Part shown: piece by piece, positions 7,975-34,933 of the stretch
Layout of the letters: the number at the start of each line of letters is the position of its first letter
Position numbering within the stretch: position 1 is the stretch's first letter
Origin: Flavobacterium sp.
GTDB taxonomy: Bacteria; Bacteroidota; Bacteroidia; Flavobacteriales; Flavobacteriaceae
Direction: 5' to 3'
DNA length: 34,933 nucleotides
Assembly: GCA_008501705.1 (NCBI GenBank)
Contig: QQUG01000044.1
Span: 1 to 34,933, forward strand
Program-made: the position numbers and the translations under genes
Notes under the pieces: model-generated
Database searches by the model: none
What the model was told of the DNA's origin: nothing
What the model saw: the letters and a program-made list of their open reading frames with translations, nothing else

Positions 7975-10204
7975 ATATCCCTATTATAACAGTTCCCGTT
8001 ATATTTCTTCCCATATTTAAAATACCATCTGTCTTAAGTCGGGACAAATGCGAAATATATTCTTTGTTAAAGATATTAGTAACCGCCAATCTAAGATCTA
8101 CTGTGGCCTTATTGAGTTGCAGACTGGCACTGGCCCCCAAATTCACCAAACTATACCCACCGGTTCTAAGTTCGGAAGTGCTAGTCTTATCCTGATCCAT
8201 CACATTAAGTAATGTGGCAAAGGCTTCCCATTGCTTAAAGAACTTATTCGCTCCAAATTCAACACTTAGTGTATTGCGTATACTGTTGGCTGGTATTAAC
8301 GGCAGGCTCTCTCCATTGTCCATTTCGCCCGTCACGGTTTGGAAACTACTTTCAAGATGGAGCCAATCCAAGGGGTGCGGGTGCAAATGCAGTCCGAATT
8401 CACCTCCGTATAACTTGCTGTCGTCCTGCACATAGTTGTAAACAAAATTGTCGTCTATCATTTCTCCGGTAGGCAGAATGAAAATAAAGCTATCTACCAG
8501 GTTATAAAATCCATTCGCAAAGATCTCAACATGTTCGTTCCCGTATTCTAAAGATAGATCCAGTTGGAGGTTTTGTTCGTTATCCAGGTTGGGGTTACCC
8601 ACCTCGTAGCGGTTTGTTCCTTCGTGAACCCCATTGGAGGTAAGTTCGGCCAGGTTAGGCGCACGAAAACCGGAGGCAAGGTTAATACGCCCGGACAGCT
8701 GTTTAGTAATATCGAACTTAGCACCCAGCGCTGCATTAAAACTATTGAAATCGCGTTCCAGGGCGTGAATAAATAATTCTCCTTCGTCTGTAAACGCGGC
8801 ATCACTGTCCAGCTTCCGGATATCGTAACGCAAGCCCGCCTGTAAATCAATCTTTTCCAGGTGATAATGCGTCGTTCCCAATACTCCAACATCCACCACC
8901 GTAGCGTCTGGAATGAGTATTTCCTCTCCAAAGTTCTTGTTCTTCTGAAACATCCCCTGTACGCCCACTATGGTCTCGAACTTACCAAGATCGGGCAGAT
9001 TGTATTTCAGGTCGTAGTTGAGGGTGTTGAGTTTCATTTGAAGGGCAGGGCCTTCTTCTGGAGCTCCTTCTTCGTGTTCTTCAAATTCACGTCTGTCATT
9101 AAATATATATCCCAGTTTTACATCCAGGCTGGAATTATTGAAATAGTGGTTGTTCTCCAAACTGAGAATATGATTGTCGATCTCCTGGTAGGGTTCCATA
9201 GGTTTCTTTTCGGTGGATTGCACTCCTAATTCTTCCGGAATCCCAATATTGGCTCTGTTATAGTTGTACCGAAACGTACTTTTTATCTTATTGCCCTGAT
9301 AGCGTAGCCCCGTCTTCAGATCTGTTTCATTAAACCTCGAATTGGTGACCCGGACGCCGTTTCCCGCTTCGTAATCACTGTGAGCATCGTAGGCCACACG
9401 GGCCAGGAATTTTAATTTTTCCCCGGAGGTTTGTGCCCCGCCATTAAAACTATAACCTTGTGTATTCGAGAAGTAAGTAGCTGTGGCATCGGCGGTTGTT
9501 TTGCCAATACCGGCAAAAGGTTCGGGGTTGAAATACAACACTCCGCCCAGGGCATCGCTACCATATAACAGGGAAGCCGGCCCTTTAATTACTTCCACGC
9601 TGCCGGTACCTGAGGCATTAAGTCCTAAGCCATGTTCATCGCCAAATTGCTGATTTTCCAGCCTAACACCCTGGGCATACGTAAGTACCCGATTTGCGCT
9701 CAGGCCTCTTATTACCGGTTTGCCTATCCCCACTCCGGTACTAATACTTTCTACTCCGGCAATGGTTGTGATACCTTCAGATAGCGTAGTGGCTCCGGAT
9801 TTTGAAAGATCATCTACAGACACCCGCTCTACCTTCATCACGTTATCCCTTTGTAACTTATGAAAGGGTGCGGCGATAATAACCTGGGCCATTTCCACGG
9901 CGCTTTCTTCCATTTCAATATCGATGTTGAGCGACGTATTTTCTCCCGAAAAATTAAACTTTTCAGAATAGGTGGCGTATCCCAGAAAGGAGCATACCAC
10001 GGTAAAGGTACCCGAAGGGATTCCATTTAGTTCGTAATTCCCATCCAGATCTGTTTCGGTTCCTATTTCAAGTTGTGGGATATAGATTGCTGCCAAAAGG
10101 GGCTCGTTGCTACCCGCAGCGGTGACAGTTCCGCTTATGCTATTTTGAGACTTTGCCGTATATACAAACGTGCATATTAGCAAAGACATGTATAATGTTT
10201 TCAT
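7973..10204 (-). CDS. TonB-dependent receptor with CarboxypepD_reg-like N-terminus
   Basis: ISGTVTAAGSNEPLLAAIYIPQLEIGTETDLDGNYELNGIPSG; plug PVIRGLSANRVLTYAQGVRLENQQFGDEHGLGLNASGTGSVEVIKGPASLLYGSDALGGVLYF; acidic/His patch EEHEEGAPEEGP. Confidence 0.95.
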   Translation of the reverse strand: MKTLYMSLLICTFVYTAKSQNSISGTVTAAGSNEPLLAAIYIPQLEIGTETDLDGNYELNGIPSGTFTVVCSFLGYATYSEKFNFSGENTSLNIDIEMEESAVEMAQVIIAAPFHKLQRDNVMKVERVSVDDLSKSGATTLSEGITTIAGVESISTGVGIGKPVIRGLSANRVLTYAQGVRLENQQFGDEHGLGLNASGTGSVEVIKGPASLLYGSDALGGVLYFNPEPFAGIGKTTADATATYFSNTQGYSFNGGAQTSGEKLKFLARVAYDAHSDYEAGNGVRVTNSRFNETDLKTGLRYQGNKIKSTFRYNYNRANIGIPEELGVQSTEKKPMEPYQEIDNHILSLENNHYFNNSSLDVKLGYIFNDRREFEEHEEGAPEEGPALQMKLNTLNYDLKYNLPDLGKFETIVGVQGMFQKNKNFGEEILIPDATVVDVGVLGTTHYHLEKIDLQAGLRYDIRKLDSDAAFTDEGELFIHALERDFNSFNAALGAKFDITKQLSGRINLASGFRAPNLAELTSNGVHEGTNRYEVGNPNLDNEQNLQLDLSLEYGNEHVEIFANGFYNLVDSFIFILPTGEMIDDNFVYNYVQDDSKLYGGEFGLHLHPHPLDWLHLESSFQTVTGEMDNGESLPLIPANSIRNTLSVEFGANKFFKQWEAFATLLNVMDQDKTSTSELRTGGYSLVNLGASASLQLNKATVDLRLAVTNIFNKEYISHLSRLKTDGILNMGRNITGTVIIGI

Positions 10205-27161: not shown

Positions 27162-27644
27162 TCTGGAATCATTCTATTTGGTTTTTTATTGAGTGAGAAA
27201 GTAGTATGTAGTGAATGCTGTGCAATGATGATCACCATACTACTTCGGTGTTAATACCTTATAACCGTAAGGACTACTAATGGTGCGTAACTAGTATTTG
27301 GGATATAAAGTCGTGTTTCTGATGCTTTTAATTAATTTGTTCACTAGTTACATCGGCGTTTTAAAATTAAAAAATCCATTCACTTGCGGGGCAATTTTTA
27401 ATATGTTTTTAAAGTAGAGTTATGAACAATCAAATAGCCCAATAACCACGAGGGTAATTTCCCTTATAGCATAGATCATGTATTTGCCGAACCTGTCTGC
27501 TGTCATGGCAGACACATTTTCAGAAACCAATTTCTAACGGATCCTGCGAAAGAATCGTATCATGGGAACTTAGTTTATCTAAATGTTAGATAATTAATCG
27601 GATAGGGGTGAGAGGGGTGGTGTACACTTATTAGGCAACAGGCC

Positions 27645-28496
27645 TTATTCCACTTTAATATTCCCGTTCGTTCTCACATAAATTATAACGTCTTTTTCTG
27701 AATTGTTCGAAATGGTATGAATTGCTTTCGATGTAGCACCGAAATAGCTTCCGGTGTCCAGTACTTTTGTTTCCTGATCTTGAGGTAGCATGTAATTCAT
27801 TTCGCCTTGTATGACAACCGCATGTAAAACTGTGCCCTCCGTATTTATTGTTCCATTAAATGTTTTGGGGAATTTTACAAAAAGTCCTTTCGAACCACCA
27901 TCATCCCAAAGAAAACTTATTTCAGCTTCACTATGGGAAGCTATCCAGTTTGACTTTTTACTATTAAGCCATACCACATTTGAAGCATCTATATTGACGG
28001 GTCGTTCTCCACTGTCGAATGCTTCCTCAATGGGTTTAACTAAGTAAGGCCCTTTATCTATTTCCACTAAGGCGATATTTTCTTCGCCTTTGGCAGCCGT
28101 AATATGCGATTCTCCTTTGGGTTGAGTCCAGAAACTACCTGGTTTCATCCACATCGTTGCAGCTGCCGGATCGTCGTTATGGACACTTCCTTTTATAACA
28201 ACAGCTCTGTACGTTGCGTTGTGAATGTGAGGTGGGGAAGAAAATCCATCGGCAAACTTTGCTAGAAACCCGGTTGCTACTTCTCCATTTCTATCTCCCC
28301 AAATGGTTCCAGCTAGCGGACTTTGGTCCCCTCGTGCAGGGTTTAATTTTTCCCAATTGATTTCAGAGCTCAACAGCACTTTATTTGTTGGGTTTTCAAT
28401 CTGTTGGGAAGTAGTATGGTCCGCGTCTTTGTTCGGATTGGTACAAGACAGTAAAATTGTACTTATGGCTAAAAGACTGATCGTTATTTGTTTCAT
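27645..28496 (-). CDS. Cupin (DUF4437-like) lipoprotein
   Basis: Lipobox ILLSCTNP; two repeated cupin-like halves ([75 protein letters not shown]); 4-nt overlap with upstream gene. Confidence 0.82.
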
Positions 28497-29344
28497 TGGT
28501 TTTTCTTAAAGTTCTTGATAATTTCTAAAGTAGGTTTATGAGGTCTTCCGGAGGCTTTTTCAAAATCGGAACGCACATCATTTGCTCCGCTTCTTATGCC
28601 TTCGTAAATACCAGCAATTACAGTTCCTAAGAAATCACCTAATGCTGCCTTTCTTTCGGCCGCATAAGCCTCTACAGTCACTGAATTGAAGACAAGACTC
28701 GTGTCATACACCTGGTTGATATAATCGGCAAGCTGACTCTGAGTAACAGGATCGCCTACAAGGTTGTAAATTTGGCCATTATGTTTGTCTTCTATAAGCA
28801 TTTTAGCATAGGCATAAGCTAATTCTTCCCTACTCGTATAGGTGCATTTTCCCTGAGCTGCACAGTTTCTAATTTCGCCATCTTTGAGGTAGGTATCCAG
28901 GTATTCTAGATCTGGTTCAATGTAAATTCCATTTCTGCCAATAACCCAATTTAAGCCAGAATTTTGTACATCTCTTTCAGTTTGTCTGTTGGTTTGAACA
29001 ATAGGGCTAAAAGCATTATCCTCTTCAGCGCCAACGATACTTGTATAAACGATTTTTCGAACACCGTTGTGTTTCGCTGCTTCAATGACGTTTCTGTGTT
29101 GTATGATTCGTTTTTGAGGTTCGTCCATCCCTGAAATCAATAAAACAGTATCGATTCCTTTTAAGGCCAAATCGAAATCTTCCCGATTGTTGTAATCTCC
29201 TTTTCTGATCTCAACGCCTAATTTTGATGCTTTTTCCGGTGTACGTGCGATCCCAATGACGTTTTCCTTTCCAATTTCCCTTATGAGTTGCTTTACAACG
29301 GAAGCACCTAATTTTCCACTTGCGGAGGTAACTGCTATTTTCAT
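28493..29344 (-). CDS. NmrA-like/QOR2-type NAD(P)H quinone oxidoreductase (SDR fold)
   Basis: [20 protein letters not shown]...[44 protein letters not shown]. Confidence 0.9.
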
Positions 29345-29368
29345 AAACGTTAGTTTTTATTCATTAAA

Positions 29369-29998
29369 TTAAGCTGTAACAGCTTTTCTGTTCTTTCGAA
29401 ACCGAATTATCCTGTCTTTTATATAAGGTATTCGAATAACAAAGCCAATTCCTACGATAACCGCATAGATCACCCAGGTTTTATCTAAAAGCGCTACGTG
29501 AAGCAGACTAAGAAAAATGGCAGCATAGGAGAAGCTCTGTAGTTTTTTCCATTTACTTTTTAGTTTCTTCATCGATCTTCTATTTGATGTGATCATCAAA
29601 GGAATGACGATCAAAACTGCAACGAATCCTGCTACGTAATTCACCTGCGTAAACGTCTCAAGGAAGCCTTCAGCAAATAAAAATATTACAAAGTGTAGTA
29701 GACTCCACACAGCCGTTGCAATTCCCATTGCTTGTCTTACAAAAAGATTGCTAATTCCGAAAAGAATAAAGAACGGCGTGCACGTAAGCACAGCGGTCAT
29801 CCATCGTATAGCGAACTCTCCGGATACGTGATACATCATTTCTAAGGTGGTCATCCCTTCACTACCGGCACCTTCAATTAATGTTATGGATAGGCCATTG
29901 GTAACATCAATTTGCACCATACTAAAAATGACGAACAAAGGTAATATTGCCAGTATGGCAACTAGCATCCAACCATAATTTCCTTTTAAAAATTTCAT
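29369..29998 (-). CDS. Ferric-reductase-like transmembrane (MsrQ/YedZ-like) protein
   Basis: Multiple TM segments with His (MYHVSGEFAIRWMTAVLTCTPF, AVWSLLHFVIFLFAEG, WKKLQSFSYAAIFLSLLHVALL). Confidence 0.78.
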   Translation of the reverse strand: MKFLKGNYGWMLVAILAILPLFVIFSMVQIDVTNGLSITLIEGAGSEGMTTLEMMYHVSGEFAIRWMTAVLTCTPFFILFGISNLFVRQAMGIATAVWSLLHFVIFLFAEGFLETFTQVNYVAGFVAVLIVIPLMITSNRRSMKKLKSKWKKLQSFSYAAIFLSLLHVALLDKTWVIYAVIVGIGFVIRIPYIKDRIIRFRKNRKAVTA

Positions 29999-30092
29999 GC
30001 TATTAATTATTCTCTAAAGTTTCCAATTCTTTTTCAAGTCTTTCAGTTTTAGTTTTAAATTTTTCCATGGCTCTTTTCAACTGAAATATCTT

Positions 30093-31079
30093 TTAGTTCT
30101 CAACAACTACTTTACCAATTGCATTTCTACTTTCAAGTCTTGCATAGGCTTCTCCAACATTTTCCAGTGAAAATTGATTTTCATCTAATAAAGGGCTTAG
30201 ATCTCCAGCTTCGGCAATTTTGGTAAGGTTTCTTAAAATTTCTCCGTGTTGCTCTCTTTTGAAATCATGTAGCATTGGGATAAGCATAAATACAACGTGT
30301 AAAGAAAGCCCTTTAAAGTGCATTGCAGTGAGATCTAGTTCACATAAGGAAACGGTAGTTGCAACCTGGCCATTTAAAGCGGCAGCTTCAAAGGATTTTA
30401 GCATATTTTCTCCACCTACCGAATCAAACACCACGTCAAAACCAAGTCCATTGGTGTGTTTATTCACATAATCTTCAACCTGTTCTGTTTTGTAATTTAT
30501 GGGTTCGGCACCAAAACCTTTTACGATTTCCATTTGTTTTTCACTACTAACGGTTGCATAAACGTCTGCGCCAAAATGTTTGGCCAGCTGCACGGCCACG
30601 TGTCCAACACCTCCGGTGCCGCCGTGTACTAAAACTTTCTGACCGCTTTTTACATTGGCACGAATAAGACCTTCGTAGGCAGTTATACCAACCAGCGGAA
30701 GAGAGGCGGCTTCTTTCATGCTAAGGTTTTTAGGTTTACGAGCAATTAATTTGCTGTCTGCAGAGATATATTCGGCTAATGTACCTTGTAAGTCTCCTAA
30801 TCCACCGGCGCAACCATAAACTTCATCGCCAACCGAAAAATCAGTAACATCTGCCCCAATCTCTACAATGGTACCTGCGAAGTCCATTCCCAGTATGGCC
30901 GGCGTGGCCGGGGCAAATGGCAGGTCCTTTCCCATATTTTTTATCATTGTATCTACGGTATTGATACTGGATGCGGAGATTTTAACTAACACCTGCCCAT
31001 TGCTAAGAGTTGGATCTTCCACTTCTCTGGGTTCGAAGCTTGCATTTTCACCATATTGACTTATTATCATTGCTCTCAT
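30093..31079 (-). CDS. Zinc-dependent alcohol dehydrogenase/quinone oxidoreductase-like (MDR superfamily)
   Basis: PAILGMDFAGTIVEIGADVTDFSVGDEVYGCAGGLGDLQGTLAEYI, VLVHGGTGGVGHVAVQLAKHFGADVYATVSSEKQ. Confidence 0.93.
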   Translation of the reverse strand: MRAMIISQYGENASFEPREVEDPTLSNGQVLVKISASSINTVDTMIKNMGKDLPFAPATPAILGMDFAGTIVEIGADVTDFSVGDEVYGCAGGLGDLQGTLAEYISADSKLIARKPKNLSMKEAASLPLVGITAYEGLIRANVKSGQKVLVHGGTGGVGHVAVQLAKHFGADVYATVSSEKQMEIVKGFGAEPINYKTEQVEDYVNKHTNGLGFDVVFDSVGGENMLKSFEAAALNGQVATTVSLCELDLTAMHFKGLSLHVVFMLIPMLHDFKREQHGEILRNLTKIAEAGDLSPLLDENQFSLENVGEAYARLESRNAIGKVVVEN

Positions 31080-31096
31080 GTACTATTGTTTTAGTT

Positions 31097-31113
31097 ACTA
31101 TAAAAATTATAGT
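31097..31113. promoter_or_regulatory. Perfect 17-bp palindrome, candidate HxlR-family operator
   Basis: ACTATAA-AAA-TTATAGT in the divergent intergenic region. Confidence 0.6.
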
Positions 31114-31143
31114 TGCAAACTTAAGTATAGTATTCTATCTTTG
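31113..31143 (+). promoter_or_regulatory. Bacteroidetes-type promoter for the HxlR gene
   Basis: TTG (31113-31115)-N20-TATCTTTG (31136-31143), fitting the Bacteroidetes -33/-7 pattern with TAnnTTTG. Confidence 0.6.
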
Positions 31144-31175
31144 CAATAACGGTCAAAAATGATAGTATACATTTT

Positions 31176-31532
31176 ATGGAAAAGACAGAACCAAAAATGC
31201 TTAAGTTCAGAGGTAGTGAATATCCTTGTTGTGCAAGCTTAACGATGGGGGTTATAGGAGGAAAATGGAAAACAGTGATCTTATATCATTTAATGCACAA
31301 AACACTTCGCTATAACGAGTTAAGAAAGGAAATGCCCACCGTTACTGAAAGAACCTTGAGTTTGCAGCTAAAAGCCCTGGAAGAAGATGGCTTAATTAAA
31401 AGAAAGGTGTATACGTCCAAGCCACCTTTGAAAGTTGAGTATTCCTTAACCGATCTCGGTAAAACCTTAATTCCGTTAATTCAGTCTATTGCGGATTGGG
31501 GTGACTTTGTAGTTGAAAAATATGCAAAGTAG
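31176..31532 (+). CDS. HxlR-family winged-helix transcriptional regulator
   Basis: EYPCCASLTMGVIGGKWKTVILYHLMHKTLRYNELRKEMPTVTERTLSLQLKALEEDGLIKRKVY...VEYSLTDLGKTLIPLI. Confidence 0.96.
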   Translation: MEKTEPKMLKFRGSEYPCCASLTMGVIGGKWKTVILYHLMHKTLRYNELRKEMPTVTERTLSLQLKALEEDGLIKRKVYTSKPPLKVEYSLTDLGKTLIPLIQSIADWGDFVVEKYAK

Positions 31533-31742
31533 GGGGTTAGTTTGTTGCTGAGGGGCCTGTGTATGAGTAGTTGCGTGGGTAAGCCTTTAACTTAGCGTGT
31601 CGGTATGGTAGGTAGGTTTCTTTAAATTTGTGATGATTAATTGGGGGGAGGCAAAACTAAGGTTTTTGAACCAAGTAAGCAGGGGGGAAATTTATTCTTT
31701 GGCAAAATATACCCTACGGTCGTGGGAACTAATGTAACAAGC

Positions 31743-32852
31743 TTATGACAAATATGAATGACTAGCAAAAAGGATATTCCTTTTATAAAATTTGTTTAGA
31801 AATAAGTTTGGGAGTATTCTTTCAGCGCTTTCTTGAAGAATACTAAATAAGGGCCTAAAATGGTCATACTTACCTTCATATACTTCTCTCCATAGATTTG
31901 GTCTATATCTTACCCAGATACTTAAAAGGTAAAATAATTTAAAGTATAGAAGAAATACGTCATCTATGGTTAATAATGGTTTTAATGTGCAGCTTGCGGC
32001 AATGGGTGAATTGTATTTAGGCTTTAGGGTAATATATTGAGCAAGGACATCGTCGCATCTAAATTCTTCTTTCGAAGAATCTTTATTAGTTTTTTTTCTG
32101 TATTCAAATTGATATTCTTCAGGAATACTCAAAATATTATTTATTAAATCCGCTTCCAGATATTCAGTATTTTGAAACTTATTTATGCTTACTTTAAAAG
32201 ATGCAGGTTCTACTTTGTAATTTTTACTTGCATAATAATTTAGATAATATGGTTGCTCTTTAAATATTTCTGAGTAAATGTTCTTTAATTCTGGAATACG
32301 AGCTAATAGTTCTTTTAATGAAACGATTTTGTGAATTTGCTCCTCAGGTACTTTATCTATTTTTCGATAGTAATTAGGGGTAATTATCTTTTTCGTGTCA
32401 AATAACATTCTATCTAGATATTCTTTAAAAAAACCATTCGGACAGCAATAAATGAATTCATTTTCAGCGATATTACCGGTTGCTGTACGGTAAATGGATT
32501 TTAGACCGTGACCTCCGTTTTTTGAGAAGTTTTCAACATCGCTTAGGGTTAATGGGTTATTAACGTTTGCGATAAGTAAGGCGCTCAATAAATTATACGT
32601 ACCGTAATAAATCGAAATTATACTTGGTGTCAAATTTCTAGCGTCAGATTGATTAAATAAATCTCTCGCACTACGAATACAAAACGTTATGCCTTTAGCT
32701 TTTTCATTCAATAATTCATCATTAAGTCCTAGTCCGGCTAACTGTGATTGACGGGTTAATTCCTCAATAACACCATTATGCGTCGTTAGAATATCAATTC
32801 GTTGCCAAATTGCAATTTTCGGAGTTTCTGTAAAAATTCTTTCGTGATCCAT
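31743..32852 (-). CDS. YaaC-like protein
   Basis: ITFCIRSARDLFNQSDARNLTPSIISIYYGTYNLLSALLIA, NGGHGLKSI, and C-terminal RPNLWREVYEGKYDHFRPLFSILQESAERILPNLFLNKFY resemble YaaC-family architecture. Confidence 0.7.
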   Translation of the reverse strand: MDHERIFTETPKIAIWQRIDILTTHNGVIEELTRQSQLAGLGLNDELLNEKAKGITFCIRSARDLFNQSDARNLTPSIISIYYGTYNLLSALLIANVNNPLTLSDVENFSKNGGHGLKSIYRTATGNIAENEFIYCCPNGFFKEYLDRMLFDTKKIITPNYYRKIDKVPEEQIHKIVSLKELLARIPELKNIYSEIFKEQPYYLNYYASKNYKVEPASFKVSINKFQNTEYLEADLINNILSIPEEYQFEYRKKTNKDSSKEEFRCDDVLAQYITLKPKYNSPIAASCTLKPLLTIDDVFLLYFKLFYLLSIWVRYRPNLWREVYEGKYDHFRPLFSILQESAERILPNLFLNKFYKRNILFASHSYLS

Positions 32853-32988
32853 AAATTTGTTATATCCGTGTCACATGGAGCAACGTTGTATTGTATTCAG
32901 ATGAAAAACTAATTAAAATTGTAACTTCCACGAATAATTTCAATAGAAATCCACACAGTCATCAATGTTATGTCTTTCTAAGAATTGT

Positions 32989-34503
32989 TTATTCGGTAAT
33001 TTTTAAATTTTTATCAAGCTTCAAACCGTTAATGTATTCCCGAAAATTTTCAAGATTTATTTTAGGTGATGACCGAATTTTGTCTTCTCTTCCCTCCTCG
33101 TCTTTTTGCCCTGGTTCCACCTGTTTGAAGTTTCGAGGATTTGCATTTGGAAATAGACCAACATCTACTAAGTATGCTGAATATCTCGTGCCATCACTCG
33201 GAGCTGAACTTGTATTTGAGTTTGCAATATGTATTAATCTAAGATCAACTAGTTCTTTAATTGCCTGATTGATTTGTGGATATTTTAGTATTTCAGAATT
33301 TGATATTAAGAAAGCGTTCCATTTTTTATTCTCGACGATTTCATTTCTAATATGCTGTAAATAATGTTCTAAAATCTCTTTCTCATCCTGTGAGTCAGTT
33401 TTAAATGCTTCTAATTTATTTGGTAGATTTTCAATACTAGTTTCAATTACCAAAGGTTTACTAATACTCGTTTGACCATTAATTATTTTATTACCTAGAT
33501 CTAAAAACAAGGAGAAAAAATCTCTTGGCACTCCTCCTGATGCTAAACAAAGAAATCTAAATCCGTTTTCTGAAAAAACATTCTCGTAATCAATGTTTAC
33601 GTCAACTTTATTATTTACGCTAATAAGGAGATTTTTCATAAAACTCACAAGAGAATTAAAATTTTCAAAATTATAATCAAGATTTAATGATTGACCGTCA
33701 TGCTTAACTTCCATCCCTATGTAGGTTTCTCCTTGGGTGTAAAGCGAAGTCCTATGTTTTATTGAAGCAATTTTTAAATAAAGTCGTGTATTCTTTGAGA
33801 TACGATGGAAAAAGTCGGCAAAATAAGGTTGGTCGGTTTTTCTAATAAAATAGAAATCATCTAGAATAAGAAAAATATCTTTATCCAAGTATTCGGACGA
33901 TTGTTGAATTAGTTCTTTAAAATCTGTTAGTTCATTACGTAGAATATTCAGTTTGTCAATTTTTAATGTTTTCGACGATTCTAATTCTTCACTCACTTCT
34001 GCACCAACTTTTGTGTTTGTCTCACCAAACCCGGCACTCGCCTCACCTAATATTTTGCTACCAGTTTTACTTCTCATAGATTCCTCGTATTGATCTGGAC
34101 TTCTTAATCTATTATCGAGCTGAATTAAATATTTATCTAATGAGCGGGAAATCTTTCTTGTCTGGTAACCACGTTTCACTTGCCACCAAGAATAATTGTT
34201 ATCCAAGTTTGTTTTAAGCTGCTTTATTACAATCCTCAAAACTTGAATTATAGAATCTGGAAAGCTTATATCCTTATAATCATCAAGATTTACTGAAATA
34301 ATGATGTTATCCTTTGCTCGAGTCTTTAGAGATTTCAATAACAATGACTTTCCAGATCCTCTTCGACCATATATAATTTGGTTTTGTTTGCTTTCAAGAC
34401 GATCAATGTGACCTTTCGGATCTAAATACTCAATCGTTGTTTGCTCTGTAACACGAATATTTTCTTCAATATACCTCAAAACTTTTCTTAAATCTTCGTT
34501 CAT
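32989..34503 (-). CDS. ORC/CDC6-like P-loop AAA ATPase
   Basis: Walker A IIYGRRGSGKSLLLKSL; Walker B DIFLILDDFYFI; GGVPRDFF; C-terminal winged-helix-like LKYPQINQAIKELVDLRLIHIAN. Start set at ATG 34503 (MNEDLRKVLRYIEENI), not the TTG at 34560. Confidence 0.8.
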   Translation of the reverse strand: MNEDLRKVLRYIEENIRVTEQTTIEYLDPKGHIDRLESKQNQIIYGRRGSGKSLLLKSLKTRAKDNIIISVNLDDYKDISFPDSIIQVLRIVIKQLKTNLDNNYSWWQVKRGYQTRKISRSLDKYLIQLDNRLRSPDQYEESMRSKTGSKILGEASAGFGETNTKVGAEVSEELESSKTLKIDKLNILRNELTDFKELIQQSSEYLDKDIFLILDDFYFIRKTDQPYFADFFHRISKNTRLYLKIASIKHRTSLYTQGETYIGMEVKHDGQSLNLDYNFENFNSLVSFMKNLLISVNNKVDVNIDYENVFSENGFRFLCLASGGVPRDFFSLFLDLGNKIINGQTSISKPLVIETSIENLPNKLEAFKTDSQDEKEILEHYLQHIRNEIVENKKWNAFLISNSEILKYPQINQAIKELVDLRLIHIANSNTSSAPSDGTRYSAYLVDVGLFPNANPRNFKQVEPGQKDEEGREDKIRSSPKINLENFREYINGLKLDKNLKITE

Positions 34504-34607
34504 TTTATACTTATTGAAAATTAAAGCCAACGCTTCTATAAAAATAACAATCCCCACCAACCCACCTTACGGAATCCCATAAATTTCCTTAACACAGTTT
34601 TCAACAC

Positions 34608-34933
34608 CTATCCCCCCAACTGTACCGCTTTTTGCATGGCCTGATAACGTTTTTTCCACTTAGCGCGGTCCTTGTTTAAATGATCGTCTATATGCACAGG
34701 GTCCTTGGTATTGAACAATCCACCCCAGCGGAGCTCGGGATCGTCTATAATGGCTTTTAAAAATTGGCGTACCGGGCCGGGGACGTTGGGGTACTTTCTC
34801 AAGACCGTTGAGTTGGCCCATTTGCCATTGTCGTACACCAGGTTCATATCGATGCCATGGCCGGCCAGGTGGTTCGAAAATGTGGCCGGAGGCACAATGG
34901 CACCATTCACATTGGTGGAGGTGCGAAAGGAGC
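34608..34933 (-). CDS. M15-family metallopeptidase (partial, open at the right edge)
   Basis: Frame stays open through the edge (SFRTSTNVNGAIVPPATFSNHLAGHGIDMNLVYD...); HxxGxxxD-type HLAGHGIDMNL and DPVHIDDH. Confidence 0.75.
   Translation of the reverse strand, partial: SFRTSTNVNGAIVPPATFSNHLAGHGIDMNLVYDNGKWANSTVLRKYPNVPGPVRQFLKAIIDDPELRWGGLFNTKDPVHIDDHLNKDRAKWKKRYQAMQKAVQLGG

Follow-up and report, generated by a model that had tools for sequence, protein, structure and literature searches.

The ORC/Cdc6-like ATPase gene and the YaaC-family gene that lie side by side in the window (the whole stretch of Flavobacterium sp. DNA analysed here, 34,933 nucleotides) are accessory genes, located at a variable site that is without them in close relatives. 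Most probably they are independent single-gene cargo that came to lie next to each other at an insertion hotspot, and not a dedicated two-gene operon. The first-pass annotation had joined them into one system, with the ATPase as sensor and the YaaC-like protein as effector; this attractive two-gene story is here corrected to two single-gene candidates, both of which can be tested.

Translation confirmed two intact open reading frames on the minus strand, of 504 (P0001, the ATPase) and 369 residues (P0002, the YaaC-like protein), without internal stops (Table 1). Neither a terminator-like site nor a clear Bacteroidota promoter was found in the gap that separates them. The AT-richness reported for the pair was also borne out, with a GC content of 0.317 for the ATPase gene and 0.310 for the YaaC gene versus 0.497 for katG and 0.445 for the DUF5916 gene; on the HxlR side the genes have 0.38-0.42.

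Table 1. Coordinates of the two genes, their insertion site and the HEPN-associated relatives of the ATPase
Feature	Position	Strand	Basis
ORC/Cdc6-like AAA+ ATPase (P0001), C-terminal winged helix, 504 aa	32989..34503	-	translation, motifs, model
YaaC-family protein (P0002), 369 aa, confident model	31743..32852	-	translation, PF14175
Intergenic gap between ATPase and YaaC genes, 136 nt	32853..32988	-	
Low-confidence loop inside the Walker A/B insertion of the ATPase, codons 146-177	33973..34068	-	model and comparison of relatives
Insertion of ~7.2 kb relative to two same-genus genomes	27432..34607	.	empty site in L071 (G200) and L070 (G925)
M15 peptidase gene, truncated by contig end; conserved flank of insertion site	34608..34931	-	
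HEPN + ORC-like ATPase pairs, plasmid/prophage-like contigs	L015 4709-6807; L101 981-3001; L103 3756-5927; L111 3796-5849		

Two congeneric genomes (G925, and G200, which is complete) have, within ~30 nt after the M15 peptidase gene, DNA matching the window from 27428-27431 onward; compared with them, the intervening DNA of the window is thus an insertion. Seven genes lie within it, encoding a cupin-like lipoprotein, an NmrA-like protein, a membrane protein, a quinone oxidoreductase (QOR), HxlR, the YaaC-like protein and the ATPase. The flanks of the pair were correctly described at first as an HxlR cassette and an M15 peptidase gene, but it had been overlooked that the HxlR/QOR cassette shares the insertion with the pair. 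This HxlR/quinone oxidoreductase/NmrA-like/cupin-like cassette (window 27645-31532) is likewise missing from the two same-genus genomes. The HxlR side and the YaaC and ATPase genes are set apart by a step in GC content, which points to acquisition in at least two events. A third congeneric genome, G927, has a CAP12/Pycsar-type TIR gene immediately after the M15 gene (L072 3437-4210; PF10137, E 1e-39; PADLOC PDC-S35, E 7.7e-96), which indicates that the site takes different accessory genes. The comparison with close relatives therefore bears out the accessory status of the pair, which is patchy in occurrence and foreign-looking in appearance. Within the Flavobacteriaceae, the family of the window, the ATPase is present in 6 of 301 genomes and YaaC in a single one, the window's own; across the order Flavobacteriales, 2 of 298 genomes had a PF14175 match.

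The nearest relatives of both genes occur singly. The closest ATPases (65% identical in G457, L045; 41% in G181, L036) stand solo between unrelated genes, and no YaaC gene was found beside them or elsewhere in their genomes. The closest YaaC relatives belong to two Flavobacterium strains (61%, L016; 56%, L017), and here no ATPase gene was found beside them or elsewhere in the genome. Searches of six ATPase-bearing genomes with P0002 gave no match, nor did searches of five YaaC-bearing genomes and one virus record with P0001. Among all loci collected, the two families occur together only in the window's own genome. Since the nearest relatives occur singly, the two genes are most likely separate mobile cargo; they would have come to lie together at the hotspot downstream of the M15 peptidase gene.

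The identification of the first gene as an ORC/Cdc6-like AAA+ ATPase holds. P0001 carries a Walker A motif (YGRRGSGKS, residues 45-53), a Walker B motif (FLILDD, 211-216), the motif GVPRD (324-328) and a sensor arginine, and its confident structural model (mean pLDDT 85) consists of an AAA+ core of ORC-like fold and a C-terminal winged helix. In the PDB, Foldseek matched it best to ORC/Cdc6 subunits and to an archaeal AAA+ ATPase (E down to 1.8e-6), with TnsC lower. The Pfam model ORC-CDC6-like (PF24389) is barely reached (27.7 bits versus a cut-off of 27), by a match confined to 43 residues. P0001 resembles the P-loop ATPases of the Sll1717 family (ATPase_Sll1717, NCBIfam NF047389) in its ORC/Cdc6-like fold and in an alignment over residues 26-430, but differs in a score of 41.6 bits, below the cut-off of 75. 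Similarly, it aligns nearly end to end with the NCBIfam model DS41_1_antiphage (NF053860; residues 33-432 to model positions 33-434 of 448), at 32.3 bits versus a cut-off of 370, and the members from the phylum that were searched with this model all fell below the cut-off. For the ATPase family, ATPase_Sll1717 matches 8 and DS41_1_antiphage 7 of the 10 aligned members, P0001 being sub-cut-off for both. DS-41 counts among the validated systems of DefensePredictor (PMC13092281), and the NCBIfam model, judged by its name, is presumably named after it. Among the known systems of PADLOC no model matched the ATPase strongly (best E 1.5e-4, to mad8). BREX and other defence systems are known to include ORC/Cdc6-like STAND ATPases (PMC12839542).

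The YaaC assignment is firm: P0002 exceeds the curated cut-off of PF14175 (27 bits) with 85.8 bits (E 4.7e-24) over residues 48-354, nearly the whole protein. The confident model (mean pLDDT 89) had no fold match at E<=0.001 in the PDB or BFVD, and PADLOC gave no match of the protein to known systems. On the basis of conservation, H115, E188, R315 and R345 are candidate residues for an activity. P0002 represents a form of ~370 aa, rare and patchy, whereas relatives on plasmids and in Proteobacteria have an extra N-terminal extension of ~135 aa. The longer relatives (L009, L010, L011, L014, L019, L021-L026), whose extension has no Pfam match, are partly located on conjugative plasmids. Our literature search gave no paper on the family and the model matched no solved structure, yet the family recurs next to complete defence systems, on conjugative plasmids and in prophages.

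Neighbouring genes were examined at 15 YaaC relatives (genomes and viral contigs). Of the two closest, L016 adjoins a threonine synthase gene and L017 directly precedes a Gabija pair; an OLD/AriA-like ATPase (L018), Abi (L020) and Lamassu (L026) were found adjoining or near other relatives, and at L022 a complete Avs4 together with type I modification genes (type I methylase). One prophage-like contig (L031 3441-12658) shows, after a repressor, bSEFIR, a YaaC-like gene and a CBASS operon (SAVED effector, cyclase, E1/E2). Strong PADLOC neighbours were present at 6 of the 15 YaaC loci, where hand-picked proteins were scanned, and PADLOC also gave hits in two of five control regions drawn from three of the genomes concerned; because the neighbours were chosen by eye and the controls gave such matches as well, an enrichment of YaaC in defence islands is not established. 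The defence neighbours and the plasmid forms fit a stand-alone defence or toxin-like gene.

A defence role is plausible for each gene alone, and both are candidate antiviral genes. The defence-type role proposed by the first-pass annotation is thus retained per gene, in line with the prophage-, plasmid- and defence-adjacent nature of the two families, but not for the pair as a two-gene system. The ATPase may be a solo guard ATPase of the prophage or island type, the winged helix of which would bind nucleic acid or a phage product; it would assemble with ATP and act via its own inserted loop or via a partner. The YaaC-like protein could be a stand-alone effector or a toxin-like protein. A rather unlikely alternative is that neither gene serves in defence, the ATPase being a regulator of replication, partition or transposition of a mobile element (ORC/Cdc6- or TnsC-like) and YaaC a house-keeping or plasmid-maintenance protein. 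The best fold matches of the ATPase are indeed replication initiators, with TnsC further down, and YaaC relatives adjoin recombinases and parA on plasmids; however, in the window the pair has no replication origin, transposase or integrase next to it, complete defence systems lie beside relatives, and 7 of the 10 aligned ATPase family members match an antiphage model (P0001 itself below the cut-off).

Relatives of the ATPase were found on 24 IMG/VR viral contigs in an alignment-based search, while a scan of the viral contigs with P0001 alone gave no match; none of the 24 has a YaaC gene beside the ATPase gene. At L036 a 167-aa protein without Pfam or PADLOC match is encoded ~160 nt after the ATPase gene (9278-9781). 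An IS1380-type element interrupts an ATPase relative that lies at the end of a Bradyrhizobium prophage, near tRNA-Thr (L028 882-4040), and bSEFIR adjoins an ATPase relative once (L108).

Where the ATPase family has a recurrent partner, it is an upstream HEPN gene. A HEPN-type gene lies just upstream of the ATPase gene in four relatives, one on a plasmid (L015) and three on viral contigs (L101, L103, L111). These ATPases have a homologous core in common with P0001, but unlike P0001 they carry an N-terminal extension (136-147 residues before the Walker lysine versus 49-65 in the others) and lack an insertion of ~50-85 residues between Walker A and Walker B that is present in all solo ATPases examined, P0001 included. 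Accordingly, the Walker lysine and the Walker B aspartate are 99-111 residues apart in the 4 HEPN-paired proteins and 154-191 in the 20 without a directly upstream HEPN gene; by this manual count the insertion is lost in 4 of 4 and 0 of 20, respectively. The link between its loss and the HEPN partner offers a direct handle on where the effector sits in the ATPase family. HEPN domains also occur fused to related DUF499 ATPases (PMC12839542). In the model of P0001 the insertion forms two strands (138-145 and 176-183) that flank a low-confidence loop. It is conceivable, though improbable, that this phage/island family of ORC-like ATPases has two branches, one relying on an upstream HEPN RNase and the other, with P0001, partnerless and using the hairpin-like Walker A/B insertion as effector, the adjacent YaaC then being a separate single-gene effector. 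As a candidate amphipathic, membrane-inserting hairpin the insertion was rejected: the alternation score beat shuffled sequences in only a few of 24 proteins, P0001 not among them (p = 0.16), and since the test is not significant such a hairpin is not claimed.

A true two-gene defence system, with the ATPase as the sensor of infection and activator of the YaaC-like effector, appears very unlikely. The common strand, order, insertion and equally low GC content of the two genes, together with the short gap, mean that a joint arrival and a present-day cooperation are conceivable, and since most relatives compared share less than 65% identity there is room for a recent, narrow pairing. However, no second locus with both was found among those collected, and no second genome among the 12 genomes and records that were cross-searched; the survey of adjacency returned rare co-occurrence, with relatives of each found only without the other, and the partner that does recur with the ATPase family is HEPN and not YaaC. 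On co-occurrence the proposed sensor-effector pair was therefore rejected in favour of two independent single-gene cargoes.

The least probable option, that the YaaC-like protein is a divergent HEPN RNase, draws on an aligned helix with SxYYxxxN followed by a GHG motif that recalls HEPN helices and is in register in hhalign, but it was dismissed as the hhalign match is not significant (probability 2%, E 0.025), no HEPN structure is among the matches listed for the confident model, which had no significant fold match, and the Rx4-6H motif is absent from the invariant YaaC columns. Finally, one of the control regions for the YaaC neighbourhoods, picked blind (L118 1477-6034), contains RT_UG39-like and PrimPol-like genes and an ATPase that resembles HEC-04.
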